Source: a virus
Virus record (IMG/VR): IMGVR_UViG_3300006874_000131
Coordinates: 1-24,977 of that record
DNA length: 24,977 bases
Direction: 5' to 3' (one strand)
Position 1 is the first letter of the stretch. Every line of letters begins with the position of its first letter. Position numbers and translations under genes: made by a program. Positions 260 to 14,880 of the stretch are shown one piece after another. The notes beneath the pieces were generated by a model that worked only from the letters and a program-made list of their open reading frames with translations, did no database searches and was not told the DNA's origin.

Positions 260-914
260 ACAACCAATCAAAATCATTTATTCTACGCAAATCTTGCGGT
301 GATTGTGCGTGTTTTTCTCCGTATTCTCTGCCTTCTTGGGCGCCGCGTTTTGCTTCATTTCTATAAAGTGCATCTGAAATAGGATTTAGCCACGCCGCCA
401 ATCGGTCTTCAGTTTCAATATTAAGTTGTCCTTGTATAGACTTACTTGATAATTTTGCACATTCTCTAAATGCACTTTTCCAAGTGTTAAACGGATCTGT
501 ATTAAATGCAGTAATGTTACTTATTTCGTTCATTACTCGAAAATTGTCGCTAATACTTGTAGTCATGTCAGGCTTACTTGTATCCATGTTTATTGTCATA
601 CGTCTAGGAAAAAGTTTTACACCGCCGTAGCCGTACTCTAAACCATTTATAGGATTCTTACTGCGCCAAACGTGTACATGATCTAACTGATGATCTGGAA
701 CTTCATAATCAAAATTAAAGGAATCTAAAACCTGTGCATCACCGTCAACAATCCAAAACATTTTAGTAAAACATTTCTTTGCAGCAGCAATGTGTGCCTG
801 ATGTATTCCTTTTACTCCGTCAACAGGCTTAGTCATAGGAAATCGTTCTTTTAGTGCAGCATAATTTTCAGCAGCATTAGGTTCTTTATAACTTATAAAA
901 ACAATGTCATACAT
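228..914 (-). CDS. GT-A-like glycosyltransferase, paralogue of the protein at 13951-14880
   Basis: This 228-residue protein opens with a Rossmann-like strand (YDIVFISY) and has a DGD motif at residues 57-59 after a hydrophobic strand. That is the DxD position of metal-dependent GT-A glycosyltransferases. It is clearly related to the protein at 13951-14880: both share an N-terminal YD[IV][VI]F[IL]SY block with an EPNA run, a DxD at the same place, an [IV]NGL.YG.GG block and a WP/FP..MTINM or YVLNM block. Nucleotide-sugar transfer is inferred from fold-level motifs, not from a recognised named family. The ATG at 914 is chosen over the upstream TTG at 917 and overlaps the HAD gene stop by 8 bases. 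The next gene downstream is a radical SAM enzyme, the same order as at its paralogue. Confidence 0.7.
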   Translation of the reverse strand: MYDIVFISYKEPNAAENYAALKERFPMTKPVDGVKGIHQAHIAAAKKCFTKMFWIVDGDAQVLDSFNFDYEVPDHQLDHVHVWRSKNPINGLEYGYGGVKLFPRRMTINMDTSKPDMTTSISDNFRVMNEISNITAFNTDPFNTWKSAFRECAKLSSKSIQGQLNIETEDRLAAWLNPISDALYRNEAKRGAQEGREYGEKHAQSPQDLRRINDFDWLYEQFSNNTLG

Positions 915-1194
915 CAAATATCCAGTCAGCTTTGTCGTCTACCCACACATCATAATGAGGTTTTTGCATCCACAAATTATGATACTTAACTCCCCAAGAA
1001 AACAACTGTTCTTTAGTTAATGCTGTCCAGTCTATACCTGAATTAGCTCCTCGGGCTGTCCAATAAACTATTGTATGTCCGTCCATATATAATTCGTTAA
1101 TCTTAGTTATATGTTCGTAGTTAGGTTTTGAGTTATAGTAATCACTGTCTTTAGTGTAGCATATTGTTCCGTCAATGTCAACTACATATTTCAT
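907..1194 (-). CDS. Small HAD-superfamily phosphatase (capsule/LPS type)
   Basis: The 95-residue protein carries HAD motif I as DIDGT (nucleophile D6, acid/base D8), motif II around TARG (residues 46-49) and a C-terminal DDK (86-88) in the motif IV position. There is no cap domain. Small capless HADs of this layout are common in capsule and LPS gene clusters, where they dephosphorylate small sugar phosphates. Here it lies four bases-overlap downstream of a cupin and close to an HldE-like kinase and nucleotidyltransferase. A role like GmhB (removing the 7-phosphate from heptose-1,7-bisphosphate between the kinase and nucleotidyltransferase steps) is therefore a reasonable inference, though sequence similarity to GmhB itself is not evident. 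Confidence 0.8.
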   Translation of the reverse strand: MKYVVDIDGTICYTKDSDYYNSKPNYEHITKINELYMDGHTIVYWTARGANSGIDWTALTKEQLFSWGVKYHNLWMQKPHYDVWVDDKADWIFDV

Positions 1195-1550
1195 TTTTGA
1201 CTATCTCCTTTGGCAACTCTGTAATTATCTTCAACACTGTCTGGTGTACTAACCTCTACTAGTGTACCTGCTTCTAAACAAATTATTTGATGCGGTAGCA
1301 ATGGAGGATTATGCCACGAATCTCCTACACGTAATTCATGTACCTCTATATCAGCTGTTCTAGTATCAATCGTACGGACTTCAAAATGTCCTGATAGTAC
1401 ATGCCAAGTTTCGTCCTTTTCTCGATGAAAATGCATACTAAACTTTGCACCTGTGTTAAAATTTAATAACTTACCGCAGTATAAGTCGTTAGTAGCAAAT
1501 ATTAATTCACTACCCCAACCCTTTTCTACATGTCCTTTTAGTCTTTGCAT
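1191..1550 (-). CDS. Single-domain cupin, phosphomannose-isomerase-C-terminus-like
   Basis: This is a 119-residue single-cupin protein. The first cupin motif is visible as H40, H42, E47 (HFHREKDE) with H50 beside it, and a second-motif histidine lies at H87 (PPLLPHQI). These would form a metal site. The N-terminal KGWGSE block resembles the start of the cupin domain of type II phosphomannose isomerase/GDP-mannose pyrophosphorylase, and similar lone cupins occur in LPS and capsule clusters. A sugar-phosphate isomerase or epimerase role is plausible but unproven. Start codon ATG 1550 has GGAAG upstream. It overlaps the kinase gene upstream by 13 bases and the HAD gene downstream by ATGA. Confidence 0.8.
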   Translation of the reverse strand: MQRLKGHVEKGWGSELIFATNDLYCGKLLNFNTGAKFSMHFHREKDETWHVLSGHFEVRTIDTRTADIEVHELRVGDSWHNPPLLPHQIICLEAGTLVEVSTPDSVEDNYRVAKGDSQK

Positions 1551-2335
1551 ATTTCTTCCAATCTCGGAGCATATACGCCTCTATGTTGTACAGAAATTTG
1601 GCTAGACTTTATTGCAAATTCTATTGCCTTTTCTTTATTATCAGTTAACATATAATATGTAACAAAGGCTGCAAAAAAACTATCTCCTGCACCGGTTACA
1701 TCGGCTATTTCTATTGGTTCTACATGATGAGTAGATGTTGTTTTACCATTTTCTATAACAAGCACATCTTTGTCAGCTCGGGTTACAACTAAACTTTCTG
1801 CTTCTGATATAGCATCATTATACTCATGTTCGTTTATTTTTACTATACAATTTCTAAATCTTGCAAGATCAGGTTTCTTAGTATCAATAAATATCGGAAC
1901 AGTTGCATTATTAGTTATTTCTTCTATTAAATCATAAGGAACTAACCCTTTGTCATAATCTGGTATTACTATACAGTCATATACGCCAGCATACGACAAC
2001 TTTACTTCTTGACTCTTAACCTTTTCATCAACTCTGTAAACTTGCCTATAGGATCCTTTTTCAATATACCTATGTTTGTTTTCTACAACATAAGTTTGCA
2101 AATTAATATTCTTTACGCCCAATGCTTTAAAGTTTTCTGCAACATTGTAACTCATGCCGTATGCACTTTCAGTATACATAAGATCAAAAATAGGCACAGG
2201 TGCTTCTTGGCTTATACGAGTTACTTTGCCGTAATGATTTAGATCACAACAACCGTCACCTATTATTAATACGTTCAATGACCTTTGTTGAAGAATATCT
2301 TGCATCTCTTTCAAAGAAAAACAGTTCTTTTGCAT
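1538..2335 (-). CDS. PfkB-family sugar kinase resembling HldE N-terminal heptose-7-phosphate kinase
   Basis: The 265-residue protein has the ribokinase/PfkB layout with HldE (RfaE) kinase-domain signatures. These are an early GDGCCD block (26-31) followed by RISQEAPVP (40-48), a sugar-binding loop YGMSYNVAEN (59-68), PDYDKGL (125-131), and the ATP/catalytic signature DVTGAGDSF (212-220) with catalytic D218. HldE-N phosphorylates D-glycero-D-manno-heptose 7-phosphate at C1. The substrate here may be that or a related sugar phosphate. It is shorter than a usual HldE kinase domain (about 320 residues). The start at 2335 is supported by AGGAAG five bases upstream even though it gives an 80-base overlap with the nucleotidyltransferase gene. 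A later ATG at 2305 is the alternative. Confidence 0.87.
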   Translation of the reverse strand: MQKNCFSLKEMQDILQQRSLNVLIIGDGCCDLNHYGKVTRISQEAPVPIFDLMYTESAYGMSYNVAENFKALGVKNINLQTYVVENKHRYIEKGSYRQVYRVDEKVKSQEVKLSYAGVYDCIVIPDYDKGLVPYDLIEEITNNATVPIFIDTKKPDLARFRNCIVKINEHEYNDAISEAESLVVTRADKDVLVIENGKTTSTHHVEPIEIADVTGAGDSFFAAFVTYYMLTDNKEKAIEFAIKSSQISVQHRGVYAPRLEEICKD

Positions 2336-2651
2336 ATTCGCTTCCTATAACTCTTTTATTTACATAGTCTGATCCAACTATCATTAAATCTGGACCATAT
2401 TCTTTTACAGTACTTATGAGCTCGTCGTCTGTTCCAAACAAACTAACTTCGTCAATGAATTTAATGCATTCTAGCATACGCCTGCGTATGTCTTGGTTAT
2501 TAACAGGTCTGTCGAAACCTTTGTTTACTTTTATCCTCTCGTCAGTATCTATTGCTACTTTTAAATAGTCGCCTTGGGATTTTGCATATTCAAATAATGC
2601 CATGTGTCCCGGATGCAGTATATCAAAAGTTCCGTTTACAAAAATTTTCAT
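2256..2651 (-). CDS. HldE C-terminal-like sugar-phosphate nucleotidyltransferase
   Basis: This 131-residue nucleotidyltransferase has the cytidylyltransferase-like signature NGTFDILHPGH (6-16, HxGH at 13-16), a KGFDRPVN block (44-51), GPDLMIVGSDY (86-96) and YSSTKVI (119-125). The order and spacing match the C-terminal domain of HldE, which joins heptose 1-phosphate to AMP to make ADP-heptose. A CDP- or other NDP-product cannot be excluded from sequence alone. It is a stand-alone protein, encoded just before the HldE-N-like kinase, so the two HldE activities are split and in reversed order. It overlaps the upstream E1-beta-like gene by ATGA. Confidence 0.87.
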   Translation of the reverse strand: MKIFVNGTFDILHPGHMALFEYAKSQGDYLKVAIDTDERIKVNKGFDRPVNNQDIRRRMLECIKFIDEVSLFGTDDELISTVKEYGPDLMIVGSDYVNKRVIGSEYAKELFFFERDARYSSTKVIERINNR

Positions 2652-3169
2652 ACAGAATATAATTGCGGATATTCTAACATTAGATGCATGCCGCCCTTCT
2701 CGTATGCGTTTTTATATACATCAAATATCTGTTCGCTAGATGTAAATTCATAAAATGTTGTGTTTGGACATAACGACTTAAATTGTTCAAAATAATTACC
2801 CTTATGTTGATGTCCGGGATCTAATGGCTCATCGGCGCCTTTGCCTACTCTAATAATAACCGTAGCTGTGCTTCCTGTCATCAGTTCATACTTATCTATA
2901 TGGTTAACAAGTTGATTTGTTGCACTTATTAAGAAGTCCCATCTAGGATAAATGGTAACTACTTTCATTCCGGTCATTGCCATACCTAGACTTATCCCCA
3001 TTTGAACTTCTTCCATTACTGGAGTTTCTATCATTTTATCTTTGTTGACATTATCGAGTGTAGCACTCATTGGATTACCAGGAAAAACAATTTGTTGTCC
3101 GATAAACTTTGTATCATTTTTATCACCTAAAAAGGTCATTGCCTTTGTTAGTTCTTCTTTATAACTCAT
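2648..3169 (-). CDS. Thiamine-diphosphate enzyme, E1-beta/transketolase-like pyrimidine-binding subunit
   Basis: The 173-residue protein matches the pyrimidine-binding domain of 2-oxoacid dehydrogenase E1-beta and transketolases. Catalytic Glu is E53 in ETPVMEE. It is followed by a GISLGMAMTG helix, a WDFLISATNQLVNH stretch and LDPGHQHKGN (116-124), equivalent to the E1-beta histidine loop. It ends where the C-terminal transketolase domain would begin (usual E1-beta is about 325 residues). The matching E1-alpha-like half is encoded at 9348-9977 in the same cassette, and the two probably assemble into one enzyme. No lipoyl-carrying E2 is present, so a two-carbon transfer (transketolase-like or AviB1/AviB2-like branching of a sugar) is more likely than a dehydrogenase complex; this is inference. 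Confidence 0.82.
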   Translation of the reverse strand: MSYKEELTKAMTFLGDKNDTKFIGQQIVFPGNPMSATLDNVNKDKMIETPVMEEVQMGISLGMAMTGMKVVTIYPRWDFLISATNQLVNHIDKYELMTGSTATVIIRVGKGADEPLDPGHQHKGNYFEQFKSLCPNTTFYEFTSSEQIFDVYKNAYEKGGMHLMLEYPQLYSV

Positions 3170-4076
3170 TTTGATAAATTCCTTGTTTTATGTTAACATG
3201 TAGTAACGGCGAAAACGACGGTAAATTAGTAAACGGCTGTAACAAATTTCTATCTTCTATAGTTTTAATAACGTTTTCAGCCATTACATGATGGCACAAC
3301 ATTGATGGATGGTCATCTAAGGGCGGTTGATTAAAATAGTCATAATCGGATCTTATTGTTAATTCTTGATTACCAGGTTGATGTTCGTCCATCATGTCTG
3401 CCATGCTTTGGTATTCTATTCCTTTATAAGTCAATGTCATTAACCGTTCATTCATCCAAGGATTATTTCTAATCCATTCTAAATTTTCATTTGGCCATGA
3501 TAGTAACAGTGTAGGTATACCCTTATCTTCACAAGTGCGTAAAAAATGTTCTATAGGTCTTAGACTATAATCAATATACCATTTTACATAATCATCAGGT
3601 GTTTTGATATCATGTATCTTCATAAAACGTTTTAATTTAGGAATATCATTGTACAATTCATTAAAAGCAATACCCGGTCCTTCAAAAGCAATACAATCTC
3701 TATGAGGTTGAGTAAGTTGCATTACTACTAAACCAATATCTTCTAAAGGAATATCTGTCCTTCCGTGTCCATCCACAAAATTAGTATCACTAAAAAAACA
3801 GGTATTCCACCACTTTAAAATACTCTGATGACTGCCGCCGTTAACTCTATCTACTATTTCTGATGTATTAAAGTAATTTGCAACCAGTCTTGGAAATCTC
3901 ATTCTTGCAGCGTGTTCAATTTGTGTGTGATTTACTAGTCGGTGATCGTAGGTGTTCCACGGTTGTTCAACTATGCTAGGAAGTCCTGTATAATAATACA
4001 GACCTTGTCCCCAAGTAAAACTACATCCTGCAAATAAAATAGATTTATTTACTTTTTCTGTTTTTCGTTTTATCAC
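3159..4076 (-). CDS. SGNH/GDSL-like hydrolase or acyltransferase, long form
   Basis: The 305-residue protein begins with an SGNH-like block I, FAGCSFTWGQGL, with candidate nucleophile S19. Near the C-terminus it has a DDHP....HH block (about 254-263), in the place of the catalytic Asp/His of the family. SGNH proteins hydrolyse or transfer acyl esters, often on polysaccharides. Whether this one removes or adds acetyl groups is not visible. A shorter protein with the same GCSFT..GL block lies at 9970-10680. Translation starts at GTG 4076, preceded five bases earlier by a strong AAAGGAGG ribosome binding site located inside the upstream gene (32-base overlap). Confidence 0.72.
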   Translation of the reverse strand: MIKRKTEKVNKSILFAGCSFTWGQGLYYYTGLPSIVEQPWNTYDHRLVNHTQIEHAARMRFPRLVANYFNTSEIVDRVNGGSHQSILKWWNTCFFSDTNFVDGHGRTDIPLEDIGLVVMQLTQPHRDCIAFEGPGIAFNELYNDIPKLKRFMKIHDIKTPDDYVKWYIDYSLRPIEHFLRTCEDKGIPTLLLSWPNENLEWIRNNPWMNERLMTLTYKGIEYQSMADMMDEHQPGNQELTIRSDYDYFNQPPLDDHPSMLCHHVMAENVIKTIEDRNLLQPFTNLPSFSPLLHVNIKQGIYQNEL

Positions 4077-4500
4077 TTTGTCCTCCTTTCGGCCAACTTA
4101 TTTCCCAGTCTTTAAAATCTGCTGCTAAACAGTCTACTTTATAATCTTTTCTTCCACCAATTAGTTCTTGTATAATATTCTTACTTGTATTTCTAATTCC
4201 GTTCAGACCATGAGTAAGTTCAAGATTTCCTTCTTTTTCGCCTCTACGAAACTTTGATTCATTTTGCCAGATATGCAAATTCATTTGTGCGCAAACTATT
4301 ATAGCTCTAATAGTTTTTGCATCAACTACTGAATTATTTTCATCTAGTATAAGTTGTATGTCGTGTACAATATCATCAATCTCTTGTGCGTACTCGTCTT
4401 TGTATTCTGGTATAAAGACTTCTTTTAATTGTACAATAGAAAGTCTATCAATTAATTCACTTAGTGTTTGTAAATATCTTCTTTCTGATTTGTATGTCAT
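4045..4500 (-). CDS. Conserved unknown protein, mostly helical
   Basis: I do not recognise this 151-residue protein with confidence. It looks mainly alpha-helical: an N-terminal LSELIDRLSIVQLKE helix, then an acidic stretch, a NLHIWQNESKFR segment and a basic C-terminal tail (KTKNRKSK). The N..IW..E pattern faintly recalls DUF4254-like proteins found in polysaccharide clusters, but this is weak. It sits between the SDR gene (ATGA overlap, downstream) and the SGNH-like gene, so it is probably co-expressed with sugar-pathway enzymes. No signal peptide or membrane segment is visible. Confidence 0.72.
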   Translation of the reverse strand: MTYKSERRYLQTLSELIDRLSIVQLKEVFIPEYKDEYAQEIDDIVHDIQLILDENNSVVDAKTIRAIIVCAQMNLHIWQNESKFRRGEKEGNLELTHGLNGIRNTSKNIIQELIGGRKDYKVDCLAADFKDWEISWPKGGQSDKTKNRKSK

Positions 4501-5429
4501 AGGTTCGTAAAACTCCTGTTGTTGTGCGTAACTACAATACTATATGCTTCAATAAGTTGTTTTATACCATAATCTAAATCATACAAAGGTTTCCAACCTA
4601 GTGATTCTATTTTATCATTACTTACAATATAGTTTCGTTTATCAAAGTCTTGTTTAAATTCGTCCTGCTTAATAACTAAACCAGGTATGTGTTCTTTTAT
4701 TTTTTCTGCAAGTTCCATTTTACTTAGATTAGCAGTAGACAATCCTACATTAAATGCTTCGCCTGAACATTTTTCATAGTTTTCTATTACAAACTCAAAT
4801 GCTCTTGCAATGTCTTGTACATGTATATAGTTGCGTTTAAAATGCGCTTCAAACAAAACGAGATATCCATCCGTAAAAGATTTATAAACAAAATCATTTA
4901 CTAACAGGTCTTGGCGCATTCTAGGACTAATTCCAAAAACAGTAGCAAGTCTTAGTGCAACACCGCCGCTAGCAATAACTGTATCTTCTGCGTCACACTT
5001 TGTTTTAGCATACAAACTAAGAGGTTTGAATGGACTTTCTTCTGTGATAATTTCTTCACTAGAACCATACTGGCTGTTTGTGTTAGGCATAATCAATTTC
5101 TGTTTTGCTGTTAACACTTGTGCAATGTGCTTTATCTGTTCGTAGTTAACTTCTACTGTAAGTTGAGGATTATCTTTACATGCTGGCATTCCTACAATAG
5201 CAGCTAAGGGAATTATTACATCGTGATCTTTAACTAATTCTTGCAATAGTTCTTTGTTGCGTACATCGCCTTTTACAAAACAAAAGTTGTCGTTTTTAAA
5301 TAGATGCAAAAGAGACAATTGCTTGTACATAAGATTGTCTAATACTGTAACAGCATATCCTTTAGATAACAAATATTCTGCTGCTGTAGAACCTAAGTAT
5401 CCGGCTCCGCCTGTGATTAATATTTTCAT
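4497..5429 (-). CDS. NAD-dependent epimerase/dehydratase, extended SDR family
   Basis: This 310-residue protein is an extended short-chain dehydrogenase/reductase. It has the NAD(P)-binding glycine motif GGAGYLGS (7-14), an acidic D31 ending beta-2, GDVRN (54-58), a PNTNSQYGSSEE block holding the catalytic Ser/Thr region, and the catalytic pair Y140xxxK144 (YAKTK). Family members epimerise, dehydrate or reduce nucleotide sugars. An HldD-like heptose epimerase, a 4-epimerase or a 4,6-dehydratase-like role are all possible, and the subfamily is not decided by what I can see. Start ATG 5429 follows AAAGGGAT. A 5-base gap separates it from the upstream gene, the largest gap in the whole cassette. 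Confidence 0.88.
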   Translation of the reverse strand: MKILITGGAGYLGSTAAEYLLSKGYAVTVLDNLMYKQLSLLHLFKNDNFCFVKGDVRNKELLQELVKDHDVIIPLAAIVGMPACKDNPQLTVEVNYEQIKHIAQVLTAKQKLIMPNTNSQYGSSEEIITEESPFKPLSLYAKTKCDAEDTVIASGGVALRLATVFGISPRMRQDLLVNDFVYKSFTDGYLVLFEAHFKRNYIHVQDIARAFEFVIENYEKCSGEAFNVGLSTANLSKMELAEKIKEHIPGLVIKQDEFKQDFDKRNYIVSNDKIESLGWKPLYDLDYGIKQLIEAYSIVVTHNNRSFTNL

Positions 5430-5434
5430 ATATT

Positions 5435-6532
5435 TTATCCCTTTAAAGCATTTATAAACTTTGATGTTAATACCATATCGTCATCTTGTGTAATCATACG
5501 AATTAATTTTTCATAATTTTTTTCTATTTTTTCACCATAATTGTCTAGTAAATATTTTTGAACATTATGATTAGTTTTATATTTTTCTTTTAGATCGATT
5601 AGATATTTGCAAGTGCTATATATAGAATTTTGTGCGTCATCTTGTGTAATCTCATTTAAATTTTCAGGAAGAAATTTAAAATTTAGTAACCAAAATCCAT
5701 TGTCAATAAGCCATTTATATTGATCTTGAGTCGTATATAGCATAAAAAATATTTTTGCTTTACCATATAACAAACATTTTAATGTTTTTTCCGATATATG
5801 TTGTCTGTGAAATCTACTGTCTGTATCGACACCATCAGCCCAATTGTGACCTACATCGTTACCTATTGTTTCCCATAACATATTAACAACACTAGTTTGG
5901 TAATCTGTATAAGATGATATGTGATTATGTTCCCAAACTCCGAATATTTCATAACTATTAATAACATCAGAAATATTACTACTATGCGATTTGTAAATTT
6001 TAAGATCTTCTTTTAATATTTCTTTCATATTATCATAGATCATATGTCTAGTCTGAGACAATTTTCCGTTTATATGGAAAGGTCTGTGATAACATCCAAC
6101 AAGATTATTTTTTATGTCAGATGGATAAAAATTTAAAAATTCATGACCAAAATAATAATAAAAATAAAATAAAGTTAATCTATAATCATTTATAGCATTT
6201 TTATGATCAAAAGAATATTTTGCGCCAGAAAGATATATATTACCGTTATCTAAAAATCTTTTTATATCATTATCTGAAAAGCTAGGACCTATCTTTTCGC
6301 CAGGAGTTGATAAAACTATTTTACTTTTATTTTCTTGATTAATAAGATCAATGCTGTTAGAACATTCTAAGTATTTTTTTTTAGGCCAAGATTTGCCAAA
6401 ATAGAACAAATCATTGTTAAGTTTAACACTAAAGCTACCTCGCTCTCCTACATTAACCTTGCCATTTTTTAAAAAATACATAATGTACCCTATTTCATTC
6501 CAACGGCTATACTTAAAATAATACTTGGACAT
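5435..6532 (-). CDS. GT-like protein, divergent member of a three-copy family
   Basis: This 365-residue protein belongs to the same family as those at 8034-9347 and 11197-12573, but is more divergent. Shared landmarks are a mid-protein RPFHIN...TRH..IYDN block (about 150-168), a TSVVNMLWET block (about 213-222) and the C-terminal ISEKTLKCLLYGKAKIFF block (246-263). The SEKT block resembles the donor-binding loop of GT10-type fucosyltransferases. A glycosyltransferase role is therefore inferred, not shown. Unlike its relatives it lacks the downstream GFKTF....DE.Y block. It is rich in Tyr, Phe, Asn and Lys. The ATG at 6532 is chosen, overlapping the radical SAM stop as TGATG; the TTG one codon earlier is less likely. 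Confidence 0.7.
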   Translation of the reverse strand: MSKYYFKYSRWNEIGYIMYFLKNGKVNVGERGSFSVKLNNDLFYFGKSWPKKKYLECSNSIDLINQENKSKIVLSTPGEKIGPSFSDNDIKRFLDNGNIYLSGAKYSFDHKNAINDYRLTLFYFYYYFGHEFLNFYPSDIKNNLVGCYHRPFHINGKLSQTRHMIYDNMKEILKEDLKIYKSHSSNISDVINSYEIFGVWEHNHISSYTDYQTSVVNMLWETIGNDVGHNWADGVDTDSRFHRQHISEKTLKCLLYGKAKIFFMLYTTQDQYKWLIDNGFWLLNFKFLPENLNEITQDDAQNSIYSTCKYLIDLKEKYKTNHNVQKYLLDNYGEKIEKNYEKLIRMITQDDDMVLTSKFINALKG

Positions 6533-8034
6533 CAATCACCTAATAATTTTCTTTTTAAAGTTTTCTTTCTTGTATTACGCAATTGCTCTACTGCATGAAA
6601 TCCAAATCTTTTTTCTAATAGTCTCTCATATTCTGGTAAGCTATTGTATCTATCCCATGCATAATCTCTAAATCTTAAAACTTCTGCTGCTGACAAATAA
6701 TCTGTTGGCAAGTTTTGTGTTTCATATGCGTGTTGCGAGTAACCTATATACTGGTCAGGAAGTTTTACTCCATTTGCTTTTGACTGTCTATATAACGGCG
6801 ATCCTGGATAAGCCATAGCACAGTAAAAACTAGCCATTTCAGTTAAGTTTTCTTTAGCAAACTGTAAGGTATTTTCCATACTTTTCTGCGTGTCTCCTGG
6901 TAATCCAAATATGTAATTTCCTGCTACTGCAATACCATGCGATTGAATATTTGCAATCAATGTAGTAATGTTTACATCTTCAAACCCTTCTTTGTATATA
7001 ATTTTTCTAGCTTCTATATCAGGATTCTCAATTCCTAATGCGAGCCATTTAACACCTGCACGTCTTAGTATTTCTAAATGCTCTGGTTTACAAGTGTCTA
7101 CTCTAGCATATGCCCATATGTTAAAGTCATAGCCTCGTTCAATGATTAACTCACATATTCTTACAAAATGTCTAGGATTAAGAACAAACAGTTCATCTGC
7201 AAATTTAATATTTTTAACACCTTTATCTGCTAGTATACCAAGTTGATTAACTGTAAATTCCGGAGACCAAAATCTAAAGCCATTCATATGAGATGCGTCG
7301 AGTTGATCATTGCTAGATCTATTAATAATATTAATCATACAAAAGGAACACTTATACGGACATCCTAAACTAGTATATATAGATGCAAAAGGTTCTTTTA
7401 TTGAATTATTAGTCCAACTATGCCAGCCAGCTGTTCTATACCCACTGTTAGGATCTATTTTATTCCAATTTATTCCAGGCAAGATAATATCAAGGTTGCT
7501 TCTAGAAACAGGAATAGATGCTTCATTTAAATGTACACCTTCTGCATCCCTATATGCTATACCTTTGATGTAGGACAAGGACTTTGTTAAGTCCGAAGCT
7601 TGACTTAAATCGTGTAATGCTTGTACACCTTCATTTGTAAATGCAATGTCAATAAAAGAATGTAACTCAAGTGTTTCGACAGGCAATGCACTTACATGCC
7701 CGCCTACGAATCCTATTTTAATATTAGCATCTAATTGTTTTACAAGTTCTGCAACTTCTATTGCTCCGGTCATATTTTGCGAAGAAGCGCTCGGTTGTGC
7801 TCCATAGACAATAAAAACTGCCATTTCACATCTAGAGTCTTGTATCCTTGCCGCTGACTGTTCTGCAGTCAATCCTAAGACTTCGCAATCTAATATTTCT
7901 GTTCCTATACCTGCTGTTGATAGACTATTTTCTAAGAGTCCTGCCCAAATAGGTGTCTCTATAGCACTATCGGATGATGCTAAAGACTGAAATACTCTTT
8001 TTGCAGAATTTGCATGAATAAGCAAAAATTTCAT
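6532..8034 (-). CDS. B12-binding-domain radical SAM enzyme
   Basis: The 500-residue protein starts with a Rossmann-like cobalamin-binding domain (about 1-150) and continues with a radical SAM core whose cysteines are C225, C229 and C232 (CPYKCSFC). The usual His-on motif DxHxxG is replaced by DCEVLG (49-54), so cobalamin would bind without histidine ligation, as in many B12 radical SAM enzymes. Other core landmarks are KFADELFVL, ALGIENPD and NYIFGLPGDT. Known class members include C- and P-methyltransferases and ring-forming enzymes. Methylation or rearrangement of a sugar carbon would fit this cassette, but the substrate is unknown. It lies between two GT-like paralogues, coupled to them by one-base stop/start overlaps. 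Confidence 0.88.
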   Translation of the reverse strand: MKFLLIHANSAKRVFQSLASSDSAIETPIWAGLLENSLSTAGIGTEILDCEVLGLTAEQSAARIQDSRCEMAVFIVYGAQPSASSQNMTGAIEVAELVKQLDANIKIGFVGGHVSALPVETLELHSFIDIAFTNEGVQALHDLSQASDLTKSLSYIKGIAYRDAEGVHLNEASIPVSRSNLDIILPGINWNKIDPNSGYRTAGWHSWTNNSIKEPFASIYTSLGCPYKCSFCMINIINRSSNDQLDASHMNGFRFWSPEFTVNQLGILADKGVKNIKFADELFVLNPRHFVRICELIIERGYDFNIWAYARVDTCKPEHLEILRRAGVKWLALGIENPDIEARKIIYKEGFEDVNITTLIANIQSHGIAVAGNYIFGLPGDTQKSMENTLQFAKENLTEMASFYCAMAYPGSPLYRQSKANGVKLPDQYIGYSQHAYETQNLPTDYLSAAEVLRFRDYAWDRYNSLPEYERLLEKRFGFHAVEQLRNTRKKTLKRKLLGD

Positions 8035-9347
8035 TACCGATATAGTTCCTCAATTTTTTCAAACAACTCTATATAAGGATTAGTATCTATAAAAGTTTTA
8101 AGATGTTCTTGATTATATAAAAGTATATCCTTACAATTATAATACAGATCATGCATGGTGTCAAGAGACATATTACCCAGTCTTCTAATTTCTTTCATCA
8201 TTAATTGAACACGCTTCTTCTTGTTATCTTCTCTAGTATATGCTTCGTCAATATACGGTTCAAAAGTTTTAAAACCTAACTCGTGCAACAGTTGTATTGC
8301 ACCAATATTTCCGTAGTGTATAAACGGATGTAAATTTACAAATGGTCTAAACGTTTTTTCAGAATTAAAAGGATAATCGTTATTGATAAAATCTGTTTCA
8401 GATACAATACTTACATAACTATCAGTATACCACTGTTTATTAGTTTGGTTTGATGGAAATCCTGTTTTGTCATCAAAATGATTAGTGTCAAGTTCTATTG
8501 GAATCATTGCATTAGCTTTATCAATTACGTCCTTAGGCATATCAGCACCGTAATGTTCATAAAGCCAATTTTGTACAATGTCTGTTTCTTCCTGCATAGG
8601 TGAAATAAAACTTGCTAAACTTTTTTCTAATAAACCTGTACGCACTAATTCGTATAATAGATAATATCTATGCTTTCGATTTGCCCTATTTAAAGTTAAA
8701 AAGTGCTTACTACGTTTAGATCCATCTAGGTCTGCCTCTCTTACTATATCAGCAGTATAATTTAGACTACCAACAAACGGAAAGTTCATCATTTCTTTTG
8801 CACTTTCGTGTGCAAAGAACGTCGAACTTTCGATAACATGCATTTCTGTATTTTTTTGAATATTGCCAGCAACCATAATTAAATTTTTTAAATCCATTCC
8901 ATAAGATCTAAAATAGTCTTCTATTTCTCGTATACCGTCTAACATAATCGGATCATGCGTAAGATTAATTATAATCTTAACCTTTCCTGATAGAATTAAA
9001 TTACGCATCTTAGTTGACAGTGTATCCATAAGAGAATAATGAATATTAGTATTTTTTGTATAACTGCCCTTCCATAAAACTTCAAAATGCAAAATCTCTA
9101 AAGGAAATAAGTAAGTTTCATTATCGTTAACATCTACTTCATCTGGACTTACTTGTTTTAATAGTCCTGGTTTAATTGTATATCGATGAAAATTATCGTG
9201 CCATCTAAAAGATACACCGACAGTCTCTTCTATTCTTTTTCTAATTTCTTCTTCATTAAAAAGATTAGAAGTTTCATATAAACAGGACTGATGTAACCCA
9301 TTAGGTAATGCAATTCCATTTACCCATTTATCAAAAACAACTTTCAT
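8034..9347 (-). CDS. GT-like protein with C-terminal SEKT motif (family member 2)
   Basis: This 437-residue protein is a clear relative of 11197-12573 and a distant one of 5435-6532. Shared blocks are ALPNGL near the N-terminus (13-18), TLNRANRKHRYYLLYEL (218-234), SIVSET (313-318), NSEKTFRPF (328-336) followed by HPFIHYG (340-346), and GFKTFEPYIDEAY (358-370), then a long helical tail. The E-K pair in SEKTF resembles the nucleotide-sugar site of GT10-type and other inverting GT-B enzymes, so glycosyl transfer is inferred. No signal peptide or membrane helix is seen. It abuts the E1-alpha-like gene upstream with no gap, and its stop overlaps the next start as TAATG. Confidence 0.75.
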   Translation of the reverse strand: MKVVFDKWVNGIALPNGLHQSCLYETSNLFNEEEIRKRIEETVGVSFRWHDNFHRYTIKPGLLKQVSPDEVDVNDNETYLFPLEILHFEVLWKGSYTKNTNIHYSLMDTLSTKMRNLILSGKVKIIINLTHDPIMLDGIREIEDYFRSYGMDLKNLIMVAGNIQKNTEMHVIESSTFFAHESAKEMMNFPFVGSLNYTADIVREADLDGSKRSKHFLTLNRANRKHRYYLLYELVRTGLLEKSLASFISPMQEETDIVQNWLYEHYGADMPKDVIDKANAMIPIELDTNHFDDKTGFPSNQTNKQWYTDSYVSIVSETDFINNDYPFNSEKTFRPFVNLHPFIHYGNIGAIQLLHELGFKTFEPYIDEAYTREDNKKKRVQLMMKEIRRLGNMSLDTMHDLYYNCKDILLYNQEHLKTFIDTNPYIELFEKIEELYR

Positions 9348-9977
9348 TTAGAAAACTACCCATTTACCAGTACCGTAATGAGGATATTTAGATTTATAGT
9401 TATAATGTATAACATCATTAGGTAAATCTCTTGTTTTATTCCATGTTGCTACAGTCGGAGTTCTTGTACTAACTTCGTTATCTTCTACTACAAAGTATAA
9501 TGGTAGATCGAAATTACGTGCGTACTTATGGACTTCATAAAATAGCCCAGTTTCAAAACACATATCTCCTATAAAGCACCAAACTTTATCATCAGTTCCG
9601 TTATCTTTGATAGACTTAGCAACACCTAATGCTATTGAAAGAGGTCCACCGACGATTGCACTACTATAGAATTTTTCATCGATGTTACAAACTGTAATAG
9701 ATTTACCATCAAGTATTTCTTGTTCTAACCAATTAGGACTTAGACCTTTTAACAAAGCATGATAATGACTACGCCATGTAGAAAATACCCAGTCGCTTGT
9801 TTTAATTCTTTTAAATATTTCTATCAACGAATCTTCATTACCGTTACTTAAATGAACAGGTCCTCTAATCTTAGCACTTTCCCAATGTTCTATTATTTTA
9901 TTTTCAAACTCAATTAGATCTTGTGCTGTAAAAATGCTTTCTCTCACCTGAGGATACTGTTCTAAATTTTTAATCAT
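9348..9977 (-). CDS. Thiamine-diphosphate enzyme, E1-alpha-like diphosphate-binding subunit
   Basis: The 209-residue protein matches the E1-alpha half of 2-oxoacid dehydrogenases. Features are HLSNGNE (42-48, like the family's HLS.GqE), TWRSHYH (67-73, like YR.HG), an AIVGGPLSIALGVA helix region (107-120) and the thiamine-diphosphate/Mg2+ motif GDMCFETG (137-144) ending at EDNEVST (165-171, metal-ligand-type N167). The third motif glycine is Met here (GDM rather than GDG). It is much shorter than standard E1-alpha (about 360 residues) and stops soon after the cofactor motif. Its likely partner is the E1-beta-like protein at 2648-3169. The pair would use thiamine diphosphate to move a two-carbon unit; acceptor and donor are unknown. 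Confidence 0.83.
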   Translation of the reverse strand: MIKNLEQYPQVRESIFTAQDLIEFENKIIEHWESAKIRGPVHLSNGNEDSLIEIFKRIKTSDWVFSTWRSHYHALLKGLSPNWLEQEILDGKSITVCNIDEKFYSSAIVGGPLSIALGVAKSIKDNGTDDKVWCFIGDMCFETGLFYEVHKYARNFDLPLYFVVEDNEVSTRTPTVATWNKTRDLPNDVIHYNYKSKYPHYGTGKWVVF

Positions 9978-10680
9978 AATATTTTCCTAAATGACTATGT
10001 ATGTGTTCTGCTACTACTCTGTGACCATCGACTGAAAAATGTGAATCATCTATAGGATAATTTGGTAAGTCTAATAATCTATATTTATTAGTTGAAATAT
10101 ATCGACATAAATCAATGTTGTAATGAATGTTATCAAATGTCATCATGGTTTTACTTTCATCAGGCACTTCGTCTGCATCGTACAGAATCCACAATACATC
10201 AATTTTTTTGTTTTGTAGATATACAGTATATAAGTCAATATTTTTCATAAGGGTATTGAATTCGACTGTTCTGTTGTAAAAATATTTTTGATACAAGGTG
10301 TAGTATCGCTTGATATTTTTATCGTCAATTTCTAAATTGTTAACTGTAACAAAATCTTCTATTTGATTTGAGTAAATCATTATACGTGGCAACAGAGTTG
10401 TTTGCATAGTAACTAGAATATTGCTACCATCCTTAATATCTTTTGTGTGCTCATATACGTTCTTAAAAATTAAATCGTTCGATGCTCTTGGAACTCCGTG
10501 ATTTTCTACTTCACAATTTAGCATTTTTGCTAGTTGTGTAGGATATGCATTGGCATACATATAATTTCCATATTCATTAGGAGGATGCTTTTTTAACCAC
10601 CTATGATACTCTGGTGAATTAAGGCCTGCGCCTTGTGTAAAACTACAACCAAAAGATAAAAGTTTATCGTATTGTTTCAT
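9970..10680 (-). CDS. SGNH/GDSL-like hydrolase or acyltransferase, short form
   Basis: This 236-residue protein has an SGNH-like block I, FGCSFTQGAGL (10-20), with candidate nucleophile S13. Its C-terminal DDSHFSVDGH block (211-220) carries the Asp and His expected for the catalytic dyad, and there is a GxxxN-like stretch near VPRASND. It resembles the longer protein at 3159-4076 at both ends. Esterase or O-acyltransferase action on a glycan is the usual role for such genes in polysaccharide clusters; direct evidence is lacking. It overlaps the RmlC-like gene upstream by ATGA and the E1-alpha-like gene downstream by 8 bases. Confidence 0.76.
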   Translation of the reverse strand: MKQYDKLLSFGCSFTQGAGLNSPEYHRWLKKHPPNEYGNYMYANAYPTQLAKMLNCEVENHGVPRASNDLIFKNVYEHTKDIKDGSNILVTMQTTLLPRIMIYSNQIEDFVTVNNLEIDDKNIKRYYTLYQKYFYNRTVEFNTLMKNIDLYTVYLQNKKIDVLWILYDADEVPDESKTMMTFDNIHYNIDLCRYISTNKYRLLDLPNYPIDDSHFSVDGHRVVAEHIHSHLGKYYD

Positions 10681-11207
10681 CTATCTCTTTCCTGTAAAAT
10701 AGGATCTGTTGTAGGCCACTCTATTCTAAATCGAGGATCGTTCCACTTAATAACACCTTGATTCTTTTCGTCTACATAGTCGCCTTCGTAGAACATATTA
10801 TAATGGAATATACAATCTGTTAGTGCATAGTGACCGTTAGCGTACCCAGGAGGTATTAAAACTTGATCTCTAGTCTTTTCTGATAGTATATAAGATTCCC
10901 ACTTACCTGTTTTAAGATCAAGAACAACTAAATAGATATCACCTACAAGAGCTTGTACAAGTTTATAAGTCTTATCATCATAATGCAAGCCTCTTAATAC
11001 ACCTTTGTAAGACTTACTAAATCTTCCGTGAACTTCGCTGTCTTTAGAAATAATTTCTGTTACAGGATGGTCGCTAGAATGATAAGTTGTAAAAATTTCT
11101 CCTCTGTATTCACGATATACAGAAGGTTTATAAATTGGAACTTGTTTGCCAAACGTATTAAGATGCGAAACTATCCATTCGTTCCATTTTTGATTTTTAT
11201 AGCTCAT
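10677..11207 (-). CDS. RmlC-like dTDP-4-keto-sugar 3,5-epimerase family protein
   Basis: The 176-residue protein has the RmlC double-stranded beta-helix signature: SKSYKGVLRGLHYDD (64-78, catalytic-type H75), KLVQALVGDIYLVVLDLKTG (82-101), IPPGYANGHYAL (118-129), and a C-terminal Tyr-containing FHYNMFY (134-140) followed by IKWNDP (153-158) and IEWP. RmlC epimerises C3 and C5 of dTDP-4-keto-6-deoxyglucose on the way to dTDP-rhamnose. RmlA, RmlB and RmlD are not in this window, so the phage version may act on another keto-sugar or on host-supplied intermediates. The length is typical of the family and the start overlaps the upstream gene by 11 bases. Confidence 0.88.
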   Translation of the reverse strand: MSYKNQKWNEWIVSHLNTFGKQVPIYKPSVYREYRGEIFTTYHSSDHPVTEIISKDSEVHGRFSKSYKGVLRGLHYDDKTYKLVQALVGDIYLVVLDLKTGKWESYILSEKTRDQVLIPPGYANGHYALTDCIFHYNMFYEGDYVDEKNQGVIKWNDPRFRIEWPTTDPILQERDR

Positions 11208-12573
11208 TTGCTTTTGCTTCCAAGAAATTTACAAAGTCTTTAGTTAAAGGCTCTGACTCGTAAATCTTTATTAAGTGCTCTCTATTGTGTTCTAAAATAT
11301 CTTGCATTTCCCAATACCATGTATATATTTCATCTTCGGACATTTCGCATAATCGTTTGACTTCTGAAACTATCATTTTTAAACGCTTGTGTGCAACTTT
11401 TTCATTATCATACGACTCGTCTATCCAAGGACTAAAAGTTTTAAATCCTAAATCTCTTAAATGCTGTAATGCACCCTTGAAAGAAAAGAAAAAGAAAGGA
11501 TGATAGTTTCCTATCGGTTTAAAAACTTTTTCAGTTAATGATTTATGATCTCCATGATAGTATGTTTCTGTGCATATATAAAAATAACTATTTCTATAAG
11601 GTTCTCGTGTTCGATCAGTCCATGCACTTACAGTATTCATAGTAGTATCGGGCTCGTCGGCAAGTTTTTTTGGAAATAAATTAACCAATGACTCTGTTTC
11701 GACATCGTAATCTAAACTCCATTCAATCTTAACATGTTTTAACATTTGATCATTTAGCGAGGTTTTTTCAGATAGATAACTCCAATCACCGCGATCTAAA
11801 ATTTGTTCACAATATAAAGAATACAGAAGTGCTTGTCGATGATTTCTAGGACTTTTTATTTTCATTAAAAATCTAAAAGGACGTTTTCTACTTTTTTCTA
11901 ACTCTGAATCCCATCGACCAGTTTTTGAATAATATTTACTACTGTTCCACATAACAAACGGCCAATCACGCACTTGAATCTTTCGTTCATGGGGTTCAAA
12001 CCATTCATCGTATATCTTATGGCCATTATGTGTATTAAACACTAAAATAATTTGACTCGGTGGAATATAGGACGATTCTAAACATTTATGTAAATTTTCA
12101 TATTCATGTTTTTCGATATAATTTTCCTGAGCTAAATCTAGAATTATAGTACATTTTTTGTTTTGAGCATCTTCTAATGCTTCTTGCGACATATACTTCC
12201 AAAAATAATTACCATTAAGTTTTGAAAATTGCCTAACTCCATGTGCTGCAAACTGATCTAAATGAGGACTTATCTTAACAACATAAAAATAATGACTACA
12301 CTTTTGTTTTCCTTCGAATAATGAAGTATGTTTTATACTAGTTACTTCTTCTAAAGCATTTAAATTTGTTACTGTCCAACTGTTAGGCCAGTCTCCTAAC
12401 TGATTATTAAATATCTGTCTACTAATATTAGATTCGCTAGGGTCAGTATAGGCGTTAAATCCGTTGCTTATATTATGTTGAGAGTGCATGTAATTCAACA
12501 CAGCATGATTACTTTCTAAAGCATTAGGTAAAAAATATCCCGGGAAAACATAGTCATATAAAAAGTATATCAT
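11197..12573 (-). CDS. GT-like protein with C-terminal TEKV/SEKT motif (family member 3)
   Basis: This 458-residue protein is the closest relative of 8034-9347. Shared blocks are FLPNALE (14-20), SPRNHRQALLYSLY (241-254), YICTET (332-337), LTEKVFKP (346-353) with HPFFFF (358-363), and GFKTFSPWIDESYD (376-389), followed by a helical tail. A glycosyltransferase role is inferred from the E-K loop, as for its relatives. The start at ATG 12573 is chosen because it forms an ATGA overlap with the radical SAM stop and lines up with the start of the paralogue. An in-frame ATG at 12588 would add five residues and is also possible. Confidence 0.75.
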   Translation of the reverse strand: MIYFLYDYVFPGYFLPNALESNHAVLNYMHSQHNISNGFNAYTDPSESNISRQIFNNQLGDWPNSWTVTNLNALEEVTSIKHTSLFEGKQKCSHYFYVVKISPHLDQFAAHGVRQFSKLNGNYFWKYMSQEALEDAQNKKCTIILDLAQENYIEKHEYENLHKCLESSYIPPSQIILVFNTHNGHKIYDEWFEPHERKIQVRDWPFVMWNSSKYYSKTGRWDSELEKSRKRPFRFLMKIKSPRNHRQALLYSLYCEQILDRGDWSYLSEKTSLNDQMLKHVKIEWSLDYDVETESLVNLFPKKLADEPDTTMNTVSAWTDRTREPYRNSYFYICTETYYHGDHKSLTEKVFKPIGNYHPFFFFSFKGALQHLRDLGFKTFSPWIDESYDNEKVAHKRLKMIVSEVKRLCEMSEDEIYTWYWEMQDILEHNREHLIKIYESEPLTKDFVNFLEAKANEL

Positions 12574-13961
12574 ATAGTATTTTTCCATTTATGATATTCT
12601 TCTTCCATTTCAGGAAACGTTTTAAGAAAATTAGTTCCACGTCTTCTATCATGCTCATCAACAAATCTAATTAAATTTTTTCTATGATTAATTACATGGG
12701 GTTTTGTTTCGTGTTCTTCGTCGATGTATGTTGTTATTTCATATATACGTCTAAACTTTTCGGCTTCCCAATTAAAGAATTTCCTATTAGCTGATTCGTA
12801 CCAGCCGTTGTTTTCTATGTTATCGTATACTAAAGAAACCTGATCATATATATATCTTCTAAACTTTGCAGGCATAATATCAACTGCTTGATATCCAGGA
12901 TGTCTCAAATAAGGAACATCAAGTATCATAGGCATGTGCTTAGCCTGCCAACCGCCGTATGTATCTTTAATTTCTAATATATCTTTAATAAGATTTTTAA
13001 AACTAAACAAACTTAAAAAGTTATATGTTGCCATATTAGTAAATGTACAATTTGGAACTTCAGTTAATACTTTGTTTATATTATCTAACCATTTGTTGTA
13101 GTCTAGTCCGTGTCTAATGTATTCTGCTTGTGCTCCTGTAGCTTCAGCACTTGTAAATATTTTAAATTTCTTAACCTTGCCTTCGCTACAGATTATTTTA
13201 ATTTTTTCCATAAAGCGATTAAACACTCCGTCTGGAACACACATATTACTGTTGACAGCAAACTCTAGGTCTGGTCTAGGATTTTCTATAAGATCGTCTA
13301 GTACTCGAAATGTATCTTTAGAAAGTAATGGCTCGCCGCCTGTAATACGGAAATGTTTGAGATCCTTTGATACATCGGGCCACCATTTCCAAAATGCTTC
13401 TACATAAGGATTGTAATCTTTATTTGGAATAGGCATAACACCTTGATCTTTAAGCCAATCAATACCGCCATGCGCAGTTGTAGTTGGATACGGTCCGTAT
13501 TTCTGAACTTCTTCCATCCATTTACTACTAACTTGTGGTGAACAGTATGAGCATTTGAAATTACACACACTACTAAAACTTACTTCTAAATAACTAGGAT
13601 TAACATTATCATCCCAAGGTTTTTGAATAATTTCTGGAATATAAGATTCAGCCCAGGGTTCTTTGGACTTATATGTTCTATCACTTATTTCGTTATTGTC
13701 TTCTACACGCCAACAATAGTCACACTCTTTAGGCCTATCACCTTCGAGCATTTGCTTACGTTGTAACTTCTTAAATTTTGTATTATGTAATGCACTAGAA
13801 TTACCTTCTAATTCTTCAACAGGTATTTTGTGAGGTACTGGATGATGACAACTATGCGTCTGTCCGGTATGTAGGTGTAGTGTAACTTGTTTCCACTTAG
13901 CTACACAAAAACTGCAACTAACAGGATCTAGATTTTCTTTTTTCCATACTTCAGGTGTCAT
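12570..13961 (-). CDS. Twitch-domain radical SAM enzyme
   Basis: The 463-residue protein begins with a cysteine-rich twitch-like domain: C16, C19, C38 in HSCHHP, and C80/C83 in CDYCW. This could hold an auxiliary [4Fe-4S] cluster. The radical SAM core follows, with C133, C137, C140 (CNFKCSYC) and the SAM-binding ITGGEPLL (206-213). Having the auxiliary domain before the core fits the family usually annotated 'twitch domain-containing radical SAM protein'. Substrates of that family are mostly unknown; oxidation or rearrangement of a sugar or a small peptide are possibilities. The ATG at 13961 is chosen over the TTG at 13973 because GAGG sits six bases upstream. It directly follows a GT-A-like gene. 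Confidence 0.87.
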   Translation of the reverse strand: MTPEVWKKENLDPVSCSFCVAKWKQVTLHLHTGQTHSCHHPVPHKIPVEELEGNSSALHNTKFKKLQRKQMLEGDRPKECDYCWRVEDNNEISDRTYKSKEPWAESYIPEIIQKPWDDNVNPSYLEVSFSSVCNFKCSYCSPQVSSKWMEEVQKYGPYPTTTAHGGIDWLKDQGVMPIPNKDYNPYVEAFWKWWPDVSKDLKHFRITGGEPLLSKDTFRVLDDLIENPRPDLEFAVNSNMCVPDGVFNRFMEKIKIICSEGKVKKFKIFTSAEATGAQAEYIRHGLDYNKWLDNINKVLTEVPNCTFTNMATYNFLSLFSFKNLIKDILEIKDTYGGWQAKHMPMILDVPYLRHPGYQAVDIMPAKFRRYIYDQVSLVYDNIENNGWYESANRKFFNWEAEKFRRIYEITTYIDEEHETKPHVINHRKNLIRFVDEHDRRRGTNFLKTFPEMEEEYHKWKNTI

Positions 13962-14880
13962 TATTATCCTCAATTAAAAATGGTTCTTTGTTTATTCTTT
14001 TTGGCACTTGATAAACTGTTTTAAAAAATTTACTTTGTTGATCACTTAGTGGAGATATTGATATCGGAATATTTAATTCTTTTATCAAAGTTTTACCTAA
14101 ATCCTGTATTGTAGACATTAGTGTTTCATCAGTAACTTCTAATTGGTTCCAAAAATTATTCAAATACGAAAAGTCACGTACATTTATAAAGTTCCAGTCT
14201 GTACACATTGTCATATACAACCCCTGTCTTGCACCAAATATCGCCCATAGTCCGTTTTCTACATCTGCACCGATCATTTGCCAAATATAAAGTCTATGTA
14301 AATTTTGCCAATATCCGTCATACAGTTTACTTGTATCAGGCTTCATTCCCTGATCAAGTGACATCTTAACACCTTCACGAAAACCAGCACGCCATGCTTG
14401 CTGTGGAGTTGCATTATTATACACATCACTAAAAGTAGTATTCATTTGGATATAGCGCATGTCCCAACAAAAGTCAACTTGACCTTGCGGATTTCCTGGT
14501 TCAGCATTTTCATGTGTACGCATATTGAGAACATAACTCTTTGGCCAACATTTAAGTCCGCCATTTCCATATACTAATCCGTTTATAACATTTTTTCCAC
14601 ACCAGCTAACAACACTATGATCTAACTGTGCTTCAGGTTTAAAATTTATAATTTGTTGTATATAATTAGCATATACTATATTGTCAGCATCTACAGTTAT
14701 AAATCTATCAGTTTCGCTTAATTCTGCGCAAGCCTTGTGTGCAGCATCCGAGCCTTCTACTCCGTGGACACGTTTAGCCCATGGTATTTTACTACACAAG
14801 TCTGCATAGTTTTTTTCTGCGTTGGGCTCGTCGTAACTTAAAAAGATAACATCATAGTCTGCTACTTTAATTGAATTCAT
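13951..14880 (-). CDS. GT-A-like glycosyltransferase, long paralogue of 228-914
   Basis: This 309-residue protein has an N-terminal Rossmann strand (DYDVIFLSYDEPN, 8-20), a DAD motif at 64-66 in the DxD position, INGLVYGNGGLKCWP, and a helical C-terminal half with a WRAGFREGVKMSL segment that aligns with WKSAFRECAKLS in the shorter paralogue. Retaining or inverting nucleotide-sugar transfer is inferred from the GT-A-like layout; I do not recognise a numbered GT family. It lies between the repeat-bearing protein (ATGA overlap) and the twitch radical SAM gene (11-base overlap). The GT-A-like plus radical SAM order recurs at the left edge. Confidence 0.75.
   Translation of the reverse strand: MNSIKVADYDVIFLSYDEPNAEKNYADLCSKIPWAKRVHGVEGSDAAHKACAELSETDRFITVDADNIVYANYIQQIINFKPEAQLDHSVVSWCGKNVINGLVYGNGGLKCWPKSYVLNMRTHENAEPGNPQGQVDFCWDMRYIQMNTTFSDVYNNATPQQAWRAGFREGVKMSLDQGMKPDTSKLYDGYWQNLHRLYIWQMIGADVENGLWAIFGARQGLYMTMCTDWNFINVRDFSYLNNFWNQLEVTDETLMSTIQDLGKTLIKELNIPISISPLSDQQSKFFKTVYQVPKRINKEPFLIEDNNDT

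Follow-up and report, generated by a model that had tools for sequence, protein, structure and literature searches.

A four-gene block in a marine phage as a proposed branch of heptose synthesis with a cupin as candidate isomerase

Heptose genes of bacteria and phages, and the four-gene block

The bacterial ADP-heptose pathway comprises GmhA, HldE (equivalent to HldA and HldC), GmhB, and HldD, and related genes have been described in phages. Specifically, excerpts of Sullivan et al. 2010 (PMC3037559) report that T4-GCs 260, 265, 266, 304, 305, 307, and 308 co-occur in P-SSM2, S-SM2, and S-SSM7 as lipopolysaccharide (LPS) genes of unknown function; heptose-related LPS genes are named for a cyanophage in excerpts of PMC7378029, and rfaE is named for pelagiphages in excerpts of PMC7029224. 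Here, we analyzed the 24,977-base IMG/VR virus record IMGVR_UViG_3300006874_000131 (hereafter, the window) and a block of four genes at positions 907–2651, on the (−) strand like all genes of interest in the window. We propose, with moderate confidence, that the block represents a branch of heptose synthesis carried by a phage, leading from sedoheptulose 7-phosphate to nucleotide-activated D,D-heptose, in which a cupin would replace GmhA.

The preliminary description of this DNA reported four overlapping minus-strand genes, and all four open reading frames (ORFs) are present, with family assignments that held up in profile searches. Reading along the (−) strand, the block encodes an HldE-C/HldC-like nucleotidyltransferase (2256–2651; 131 aa; HxGH and STxxx motifs; phrog_7878; rfaE_dom_II, 92.9 bits), a compact HldA/HldE-N-like PfkB kinase (1538–2335; 265 aa, ~50 aa shorter than HldE-N), a cupin that we propose to be a sedoheptulose 7-phosphate isomerase (1191–1550; 119 aa; Cupin_2, 35.3 bits; phrog_7851/T4-GC 307), and a small capless HAD phosphatase with a proposed GmhB role (907–1194; 95 aa; EcbF-BcbF, 30.6 bits). 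Neighboring genes overlap by at most 80 nt (transferase/kinase), 13 nt (kinase/cupin), and 4 nt (cupin/HAD), these figures being upper bounds because ORF starts were set mechanically. The kinase and transferase families are common to the block and the bacterial pathway, but in the phage the two are split and in reverse order, the kinase is compact, GmhA is missing, and a cupin is added.

The marine virus that carries the block is a phage, given the tail-collar gene (23871–24929) and the virion-like genes upstream of the block. A DNA-level search of phage records with the window returned no match. Near-identical genes were found on several IMG/VR contigs, including a 127.6-kb sister contig, and the four block proteins are 94.7–100% identical in those sister contigs that hold them. 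The sister-contig DNA polymerase is closest to those of Sinorhizobium phage Phosso (50.2%) and Agrobacterium phage Atu_ph07 (45.4%), and the phage is therefore not a cyanophage. The genomes of Phosso and Atu_ph07 measure ~470–490 kb; the 127.6-kb contig may thus cover just a part of this phage's genome.

Placement in a ribokinase or fructokinase family had been named in advance as the outcome that would speak against a heptose kinase. We found that the kinase scored 99.6 bits against rfaE_dom_I (TIGR02198), compared to 42 bits against ribokinase (NCBIfam), which leaves the heptose reading standing. A PDB search with a profile of ten phage kinases placed B. cenocepacia HldA first (108.9 bits; next hit, 54 bits). 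Likewise, chains of B. cenocepacia HldA occupied Foldseek ranks 1–7 when the predicted structure (pLDDT 93.1) was compared (E-values of 5e-21 to 5e-18), with ribokinase following (2e-14). By these comparisons, the kinase is closest to HldA/HldE-N and is a putative heptose 7-phosphate kinase. The transferase appears nearest to HldE-C among the NCBIfam models (rfaE_dom_II [TIGR02199], 92.9 bits, vs TagD, 62.8 bits), with a placement less settled than that of the kinase. In the PDB, its profile matched the single-domain 5x9q, which we take to be B. pseudomallei HldC, at 105.4 bits and TagD at 89.2 bits.

Related gene sets in other viruses

To describe the block's relatives, we used 79 viral kinase loci, i.e., the best 80 of at least 571 confirmed matches of the kinase profile on viral contigs, minus one near copy of the window that was left out of the counts. 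These loci were chosen by likeness to the window-type kinase, and many are short contigs. Their kinases share 38–49% identity with that of the window, and those of cyanophages share 32–38% (transferase, 45–54%). The transferase was found in 78 and the cupin in 75 of the 79 loci, the cupin always on the kinase strand (75/75). An HldD-like short-chain dehydrogenase/reductase (SDR; >180 bits) was present in 63, and the five-gene set of transferase, kinase, cupin, HldD-like SDR, and phosphatase was complete in 37 loci, 31 of which have it inside a 5-kb stretch. At locus L120, these genes share one strand in the order cupin-GmhB-transferase-kinase-HldD; elsewhere, a GmhB-like phosphatase lies on the opposite strand in eight cases. 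A weak heptosyltransferase-like gene (PF01075, 17.7–18.8 bits, below the cut-off) lies nearby in 15 loci, and no fusion of the cupin to another module gene was seen. A further 71 loci found by cupin scan alone, some of which share contigs, were kept out of these counts; they hold the kinase in 54, the transferase in 57, the small HAD in 7, and the cupin alone in 12 cases.

The closest described counterpart is the cyanophage LPS cluster T4-GC 304–308 (PSSM2_309–313 in P-SSM2, and its equivalents in S-CAM1, S-SM2, and P-TIM68), which shares the transferase, kinase, small HAD, and cupin with the block and adds an HldD-like SDR (T4-GC 308; TIGR02197, 207–210 bits). In P-SSM2 and S-CAM1, transferase, kinase, HAD, and cupin are consecutive, the last two swapped relative to the window, followed by the SDR on the other strand; S-SM2, P-TIM68, S-T4, and Sf-CH8 hold the same families in different orders. 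By tblastn, 35 phage records matched the kinase and 70 matched the transferase, with cyanophages leading. T4-GCs 304, 305, 307, and 308 correspond to transferase, kinase, cupin, and SDR; three of the block's four families are thus among the T4-GCs of the co-occurring LPS set in the excerpts of PMC3037559. The preliminary description had considered activated-heptose genes unusual in a phage, which does not agree with these cyanophage genomes, whose genes are called heptose or LPS genes in the excerpted papers. Because the sister contigs conserve the proteins and relatives recur together in cyanophages and in the 79 loci, the block goes beyond a chance arrangement.

The SDR at 4497–5429, (−) strand, had been put forward as a possible HldD, an assignment that we reject: it scored 57.2 bits against HldD (TIGR02197), below galE (99.4) and dTDP-glucose dehydratase (RmlB; 94.4), and is a GalE/RmlB-like rather than HldD-like epimerase/dehydratase. 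In comparison, all five representatives of the relatives' HldD-like SDRs scored 203–229 bits against TIGR02197 and 46–86 against galE, all under the cut-off of 274.6. When the sister contig was searched with a profile of these HldD-like SDRs, only two SDRs answered (109 and 88 bits); among the relatives listed, most had cassette SDRs scoring 231–382 bits, and that of locus L014 scored 174.5. An HldD may also lie in the missing part of the phage genome. The earlier proposal of an NDP-heptose-like pathway is partly supported, without this SDR as its HldD. We regard heptose as the best reading because the kinase and transferase best match HldE-N and HldE-C and because their relatives have bona fide HldD-like epimerases and GmhB-like phosphatases as neighbors.

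The phosphatase step appears to be filled by alternative families. The small HAD of the block resembles the EcbF/BcbF capsule phosphatases, its best NCBIfam match, yet its 30.6 bits fall far short of the cut-off of 162. Of the models searched, only EcbF-BcbF and BT0820 matched, both weakly, and those of GmhB did not. Against the PDB, it matched 9iqw, "Capsule biosynthesis protein" (78 bits), and the DxD, T, K, and D residues, i.e., the full HAD set, are invariant among ten relatives. Across the 79 loci, we found a GmhB-like phosphatase in 19 (by profile search; 18 by neighbor clustering), the small HAD in 11, and a third HAD in 12; exactly one of the three was present in 42 loci and two together in none. 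The chance of finding no such pair is 6.8e-5 assuming independent loci, and serves as a guide only, as the loci are related. Two GmhB-like representatives scored 135–138 bits (cut-off, 178). Since the small HAD alternates with GmhB-like genes among loci, it may take the GmhB role.

The small HAD has matches in 384 phage records, and T4-like phages that infect enterobacteria account for many of these. In records of cyanophages and of other phages, T4-GC 306/phrog_1238 genes, including that at 12728–13072 of locus L017, carry the label "phosphoheptose isomerase". We rejected this family as a true phosphoheptose isomerase since it aligns with the small HAD of the window; the P-SSM2 copy, which also aligns with it, has no Pfam match at an E-value of 0.01.

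The isomerase step and the viral cupins

Next, we searched for GmhA, the first enzyme of the bacterial pathway. The SIS_2 profile, which covers the GmhA family, matched none of 94 viral records (0/15, 0/40, and 0/39 in three sets; six isolate cyanophage genomes, most others fragments), with a positive E. coli control. Conversely, none of the seven module profiles was found within the 10-kb flanks of ten viral loci that hold an E. coli-type GmhA, and neither the cupin nor the small HAD was found near HldE at 80 bacterial loci among the matches listed (0/80 for each). Taken together, these counts indicate that it is the cupin, and not GmhA, that accompanies the viral pathway. In a control search of 14 well-known genomes of bacteria and archaea, SIS_2 was present in 11. 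Among bacteria, homologues of the cupin were rare: weak matches occurred in 2 of 26 HldE-bearing genomes and, at an E-value of 1e-8, matches occurred in 8 of 398 Pseudomonadota and 1 of 395 Bacteroidota. We inspected the surroundings of seven of these nine cupins, and other module profiles were absent except at locus L294. There (7631–13905, Bacteroidota), a distant cupin relative lies ~4.5 kb from a fused 477-aa transferase-kinase ORF whose order is the reverse of that in HldE.

The viral cupins are strongly conserved at putative catalytic positions. The metal ligands were retained in 119–120 of 120 non-redundant cupins. With both locus sets pooled and identical sequences removed, the motif HxHxxKxE was present in 121 of 122 (~99%) and E(V/F)ST-x5-DN in 118 of 122 (~97%); cyanophage cupins read EFSTxHFDxDSxR instead. 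In the window-like cupin profile (A5), the residues corresponding to H40, H42, K45, E47, H87, E99, and D108 of the window cupin are invariant. A similar pattern is found in the D-lyxose/D-mannose isomerases (cupin, PF07385), including Thermofilum D-lyxose isomerase (TsLI), which have in common with the window cupin HxHxxKxE, a second His, and EVST..D. Among aligned D-lyxose isomerases, HxHxxKxE occurs in 7/7 and EVSTVNDDxTDN in 6/7, and an HxHxxKxE ORF was present in all ten D-lyxose isomerase loci, the ORF having been picked by that motif. Excerpts of PMC8378251 report that H75, H77, E88, and H143 of TsLI bind Mn and that activity was lost when the residues equivalent to K86, E156, and D163 were mutated. 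At the motif level, rather than by superposition, the counterparts of these three in the window cupin may be K45, E99, and D108. The window cupin differs from D-lyxose/D-mannose isomerases in its length (119 vs ~175–230 aa), in its weak overall profile similarity to them, and in its substrate, which would be a sugar phosphate.

Taken by themselves, profile searches and fold comparisons do not point specifically to an isomerase. In the fold comparison of the predicted cupin structure (pLDDT 92.7), CapF, phosphomannose isomerase, D-lyxose isomerase, KdgF, and others tied. The GmhA reaction is that of phosphomannose isomerase with one carbon more, and because of this likeness a cupin of such a type would be a sensible replacement for GmhA. 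We consider the cupin the best candidate for the missing isomerase because its relatives hold all other steps and no SIS-type GmhA. The earlier suggestion that the cupin may replace GmhA thus gains support from the empty SIS searches and from the isomerase-like pattern of residues. In RefSeq cyanophage records, this cupin family (T4-GC 307/phrog_7851) is labeled "cysteine dioxygenase", while its conserved residues look sugar-isomerase-like. As far as our searches of open-license papers go, phage heptose genes are already known, but neither a pathway-wide view nor any mention of a cupin heptose isomerase in place of GmhA was found.

Proposed pathway, alternative readings, and genomic surroundings

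In the pathway we propose, the cupin would isomerize sedoheptulose 7-phosphate in place of GmhA, the compact HldA-like kinase would add the 1-phosphate, the small HAD would remove the 7-phosphate, and the HldC-like transferase would yield a nucleotide-activated D,D-heptose, probably ADP-linked. In most viral relatives, an HldD-like SDR would add a 6-epimerization step. Because no HldD was found on the 127.6-kb sister contig, the product of this phage perhaps stays in the D,D form and could be tailored by the SDR at 4497–5429 and by an RmlC-like sugar 3,5-epimerase (10677–11207, (−) strand; PF00908, 99.3 bits), a possible tailoring enzyme. The sugar could be destined for a host surface glycan or a virion protein.

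Several results weigh against this proposal. Every module protein tested scored under the NCBIfam equivalog cut-offs, including the kinase (99.6 vs 345 bits) and the transferase (92.9 vs 181.5 bits). Although the transferase favored HldE-C over TagD when its class was checked, as suggested earlier, that check had a mixed outcome: the top whole-chain score of its profile in the PDB belonged to a two-domain ethanolamine-phosphate cytidylyltransferase (125.6 bits; better domain, 73.5). Thirty-seven of the 79 loci show none of the three phosphatases, the SSTTE and HKGxxAS motifs are missing from the four HldD-like cyanophage SDRs examined, and an HldD-transferase-kinase operon at L191 (6645–9764) does without this cupin. 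With the window-like profile, the cupin's PDB hits were oxalate decarboxylases, quercetinases, and KdgF, with no isomerase; with a broader cupin profile (A4), D-lyxose (2y0o, 5.7e-6) and L-ribose isomerases appeared below oxalate decarboxylase. The hhalign probability between the cupins and D-lyxose isomerases was a weak 2.9%, and CapF came first by fold, a ranking that is not decisive since many functions tie. Finally, as most of the viral records searched are fragments, there may still be a GmhA of the host or a distant one of the virus.

The last point leads to the strongest competing explanation, which we nevertheless consider unlikely: the viruses would make activated heptose from heptose 7-phosphate supplied by host GmhA, and the cupin would be a later epimerase or tailoring enzyme acting on the activated sugar. 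Host supply is plausible given SIS_2 in 11 of the 14 control genomes, cupins of sugar clusters are often epimerases, the first-ranked CapF cupin domain is presumably a C3-epimerase domain, and the window itself holds an RmlC-like epimerase. However, the cupin is kept in 75 of 79 loci although later-step genes vary, its catalytic pattern is similar to that of aldose-ketose isomerases, and phages with all other steps would be expected to hold the first committed step as well. Less probable still is that the block activates another compound, e.g., a hexose or a CDP-linked polyol or amino-alcohol phosphate, as the transferase's matches to TagD and ethanolamine-phosphate cytidylyltransferase, the scores below equivalog cut-offs, and the lack of an HldD on the phage's own contig might suggest. 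The kinase, however, is HldA-like and not ribokinase-like, and 63 of the 79 related loci hold an HldD-like SDR, whose C6 epimerization is meaningful for heptose only. That the genes are role-less filler from hosts, the "stuffer DNA" considered by Sullivan et al., seems highly improbable: excerpts of PMC3037559 state the function to be unknown but themselves argue for functional linkage of the genes, the frames are open, catalytic residues are invariant over wide divergence, and the same set recurs in many unlike viral contigs.

The block is followed upstream by one half of a split E1-type thiamine pyrophosphate (TPP) enzyme. Its transketolase pyrimidine-binding half (2648–3169, (−) strand; PF02779, 29.2 bits) adjoins the transferase, and the TPP-binding half (9348–9977, (−) strand; PF00676, 46.1 bits; phrog_34187) lies 6 kb away; in S-SM2 and P-TIM68, a fused 402-aa relative forms one ORF adjoining the kinase. 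We rejected the halves as a source of sedoheptulose 7-phosphate and place them outside the core module, since neither was found by blastp in the 79 viral loci. The sugar region of the window also contains two radical SAM proteins (6532–8034 and 12570–13973), one with a B12-binding domain, and two ORFs (8034–9347 and 11197–12588) that are 30% identical to each other, have no Pfam or PHROG match, and may be glycosyltransferases. SGNH/GDSL-like proteins stand beside the sugar genes in the window (3159–4076 and 9970–10680) and at sister locus L007 (8882–9661). An extra gene between the TPP half and the transferase at sister loci L007 and L010, considered as an HldD, proved to encode an SGNH-like protein. 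The 127.6-kb sister contig (L023) carries a second sugar cluster at 9159–11860, with a TagD/HldC-like transferase, a phosphomannomutase-looking HAD, a dehydrogenase-like ORF, and an SDR; this SDR was also rejected as an HldD (galE, 50.8 bits, vs HldD, 44.5 bits). At L191, there is also an unrelated cupin-like ORF, ≤1.3 kb upstream of where the SDR starts.

The "LPS" genes of marine phages had an open purpose, and the cassette now reads as a nearly complete heptose pathway with one step unfilled. There is, in our estimate, about an even chance that small metal cupins of a virus-centered family are sedoheptulose 7-phosphate isomerases of a second kind, unrelated to the first, and thereby let many phages start from the sedoheptulose 7-phosphate of their host and operate the heptose pathway with their own 2.5–3 kb operon, without a SIS-type GmhA. 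If the cupin is the isomerase, two labels in many phage genomes would be wrong, namely, "phosphoheptose isomerase" for the HAD and "cysteine dioxygenase" for the cupin, and the cupins would form a new family of enzymes for the step at which antibacterial work targets GmhA in bacteria.

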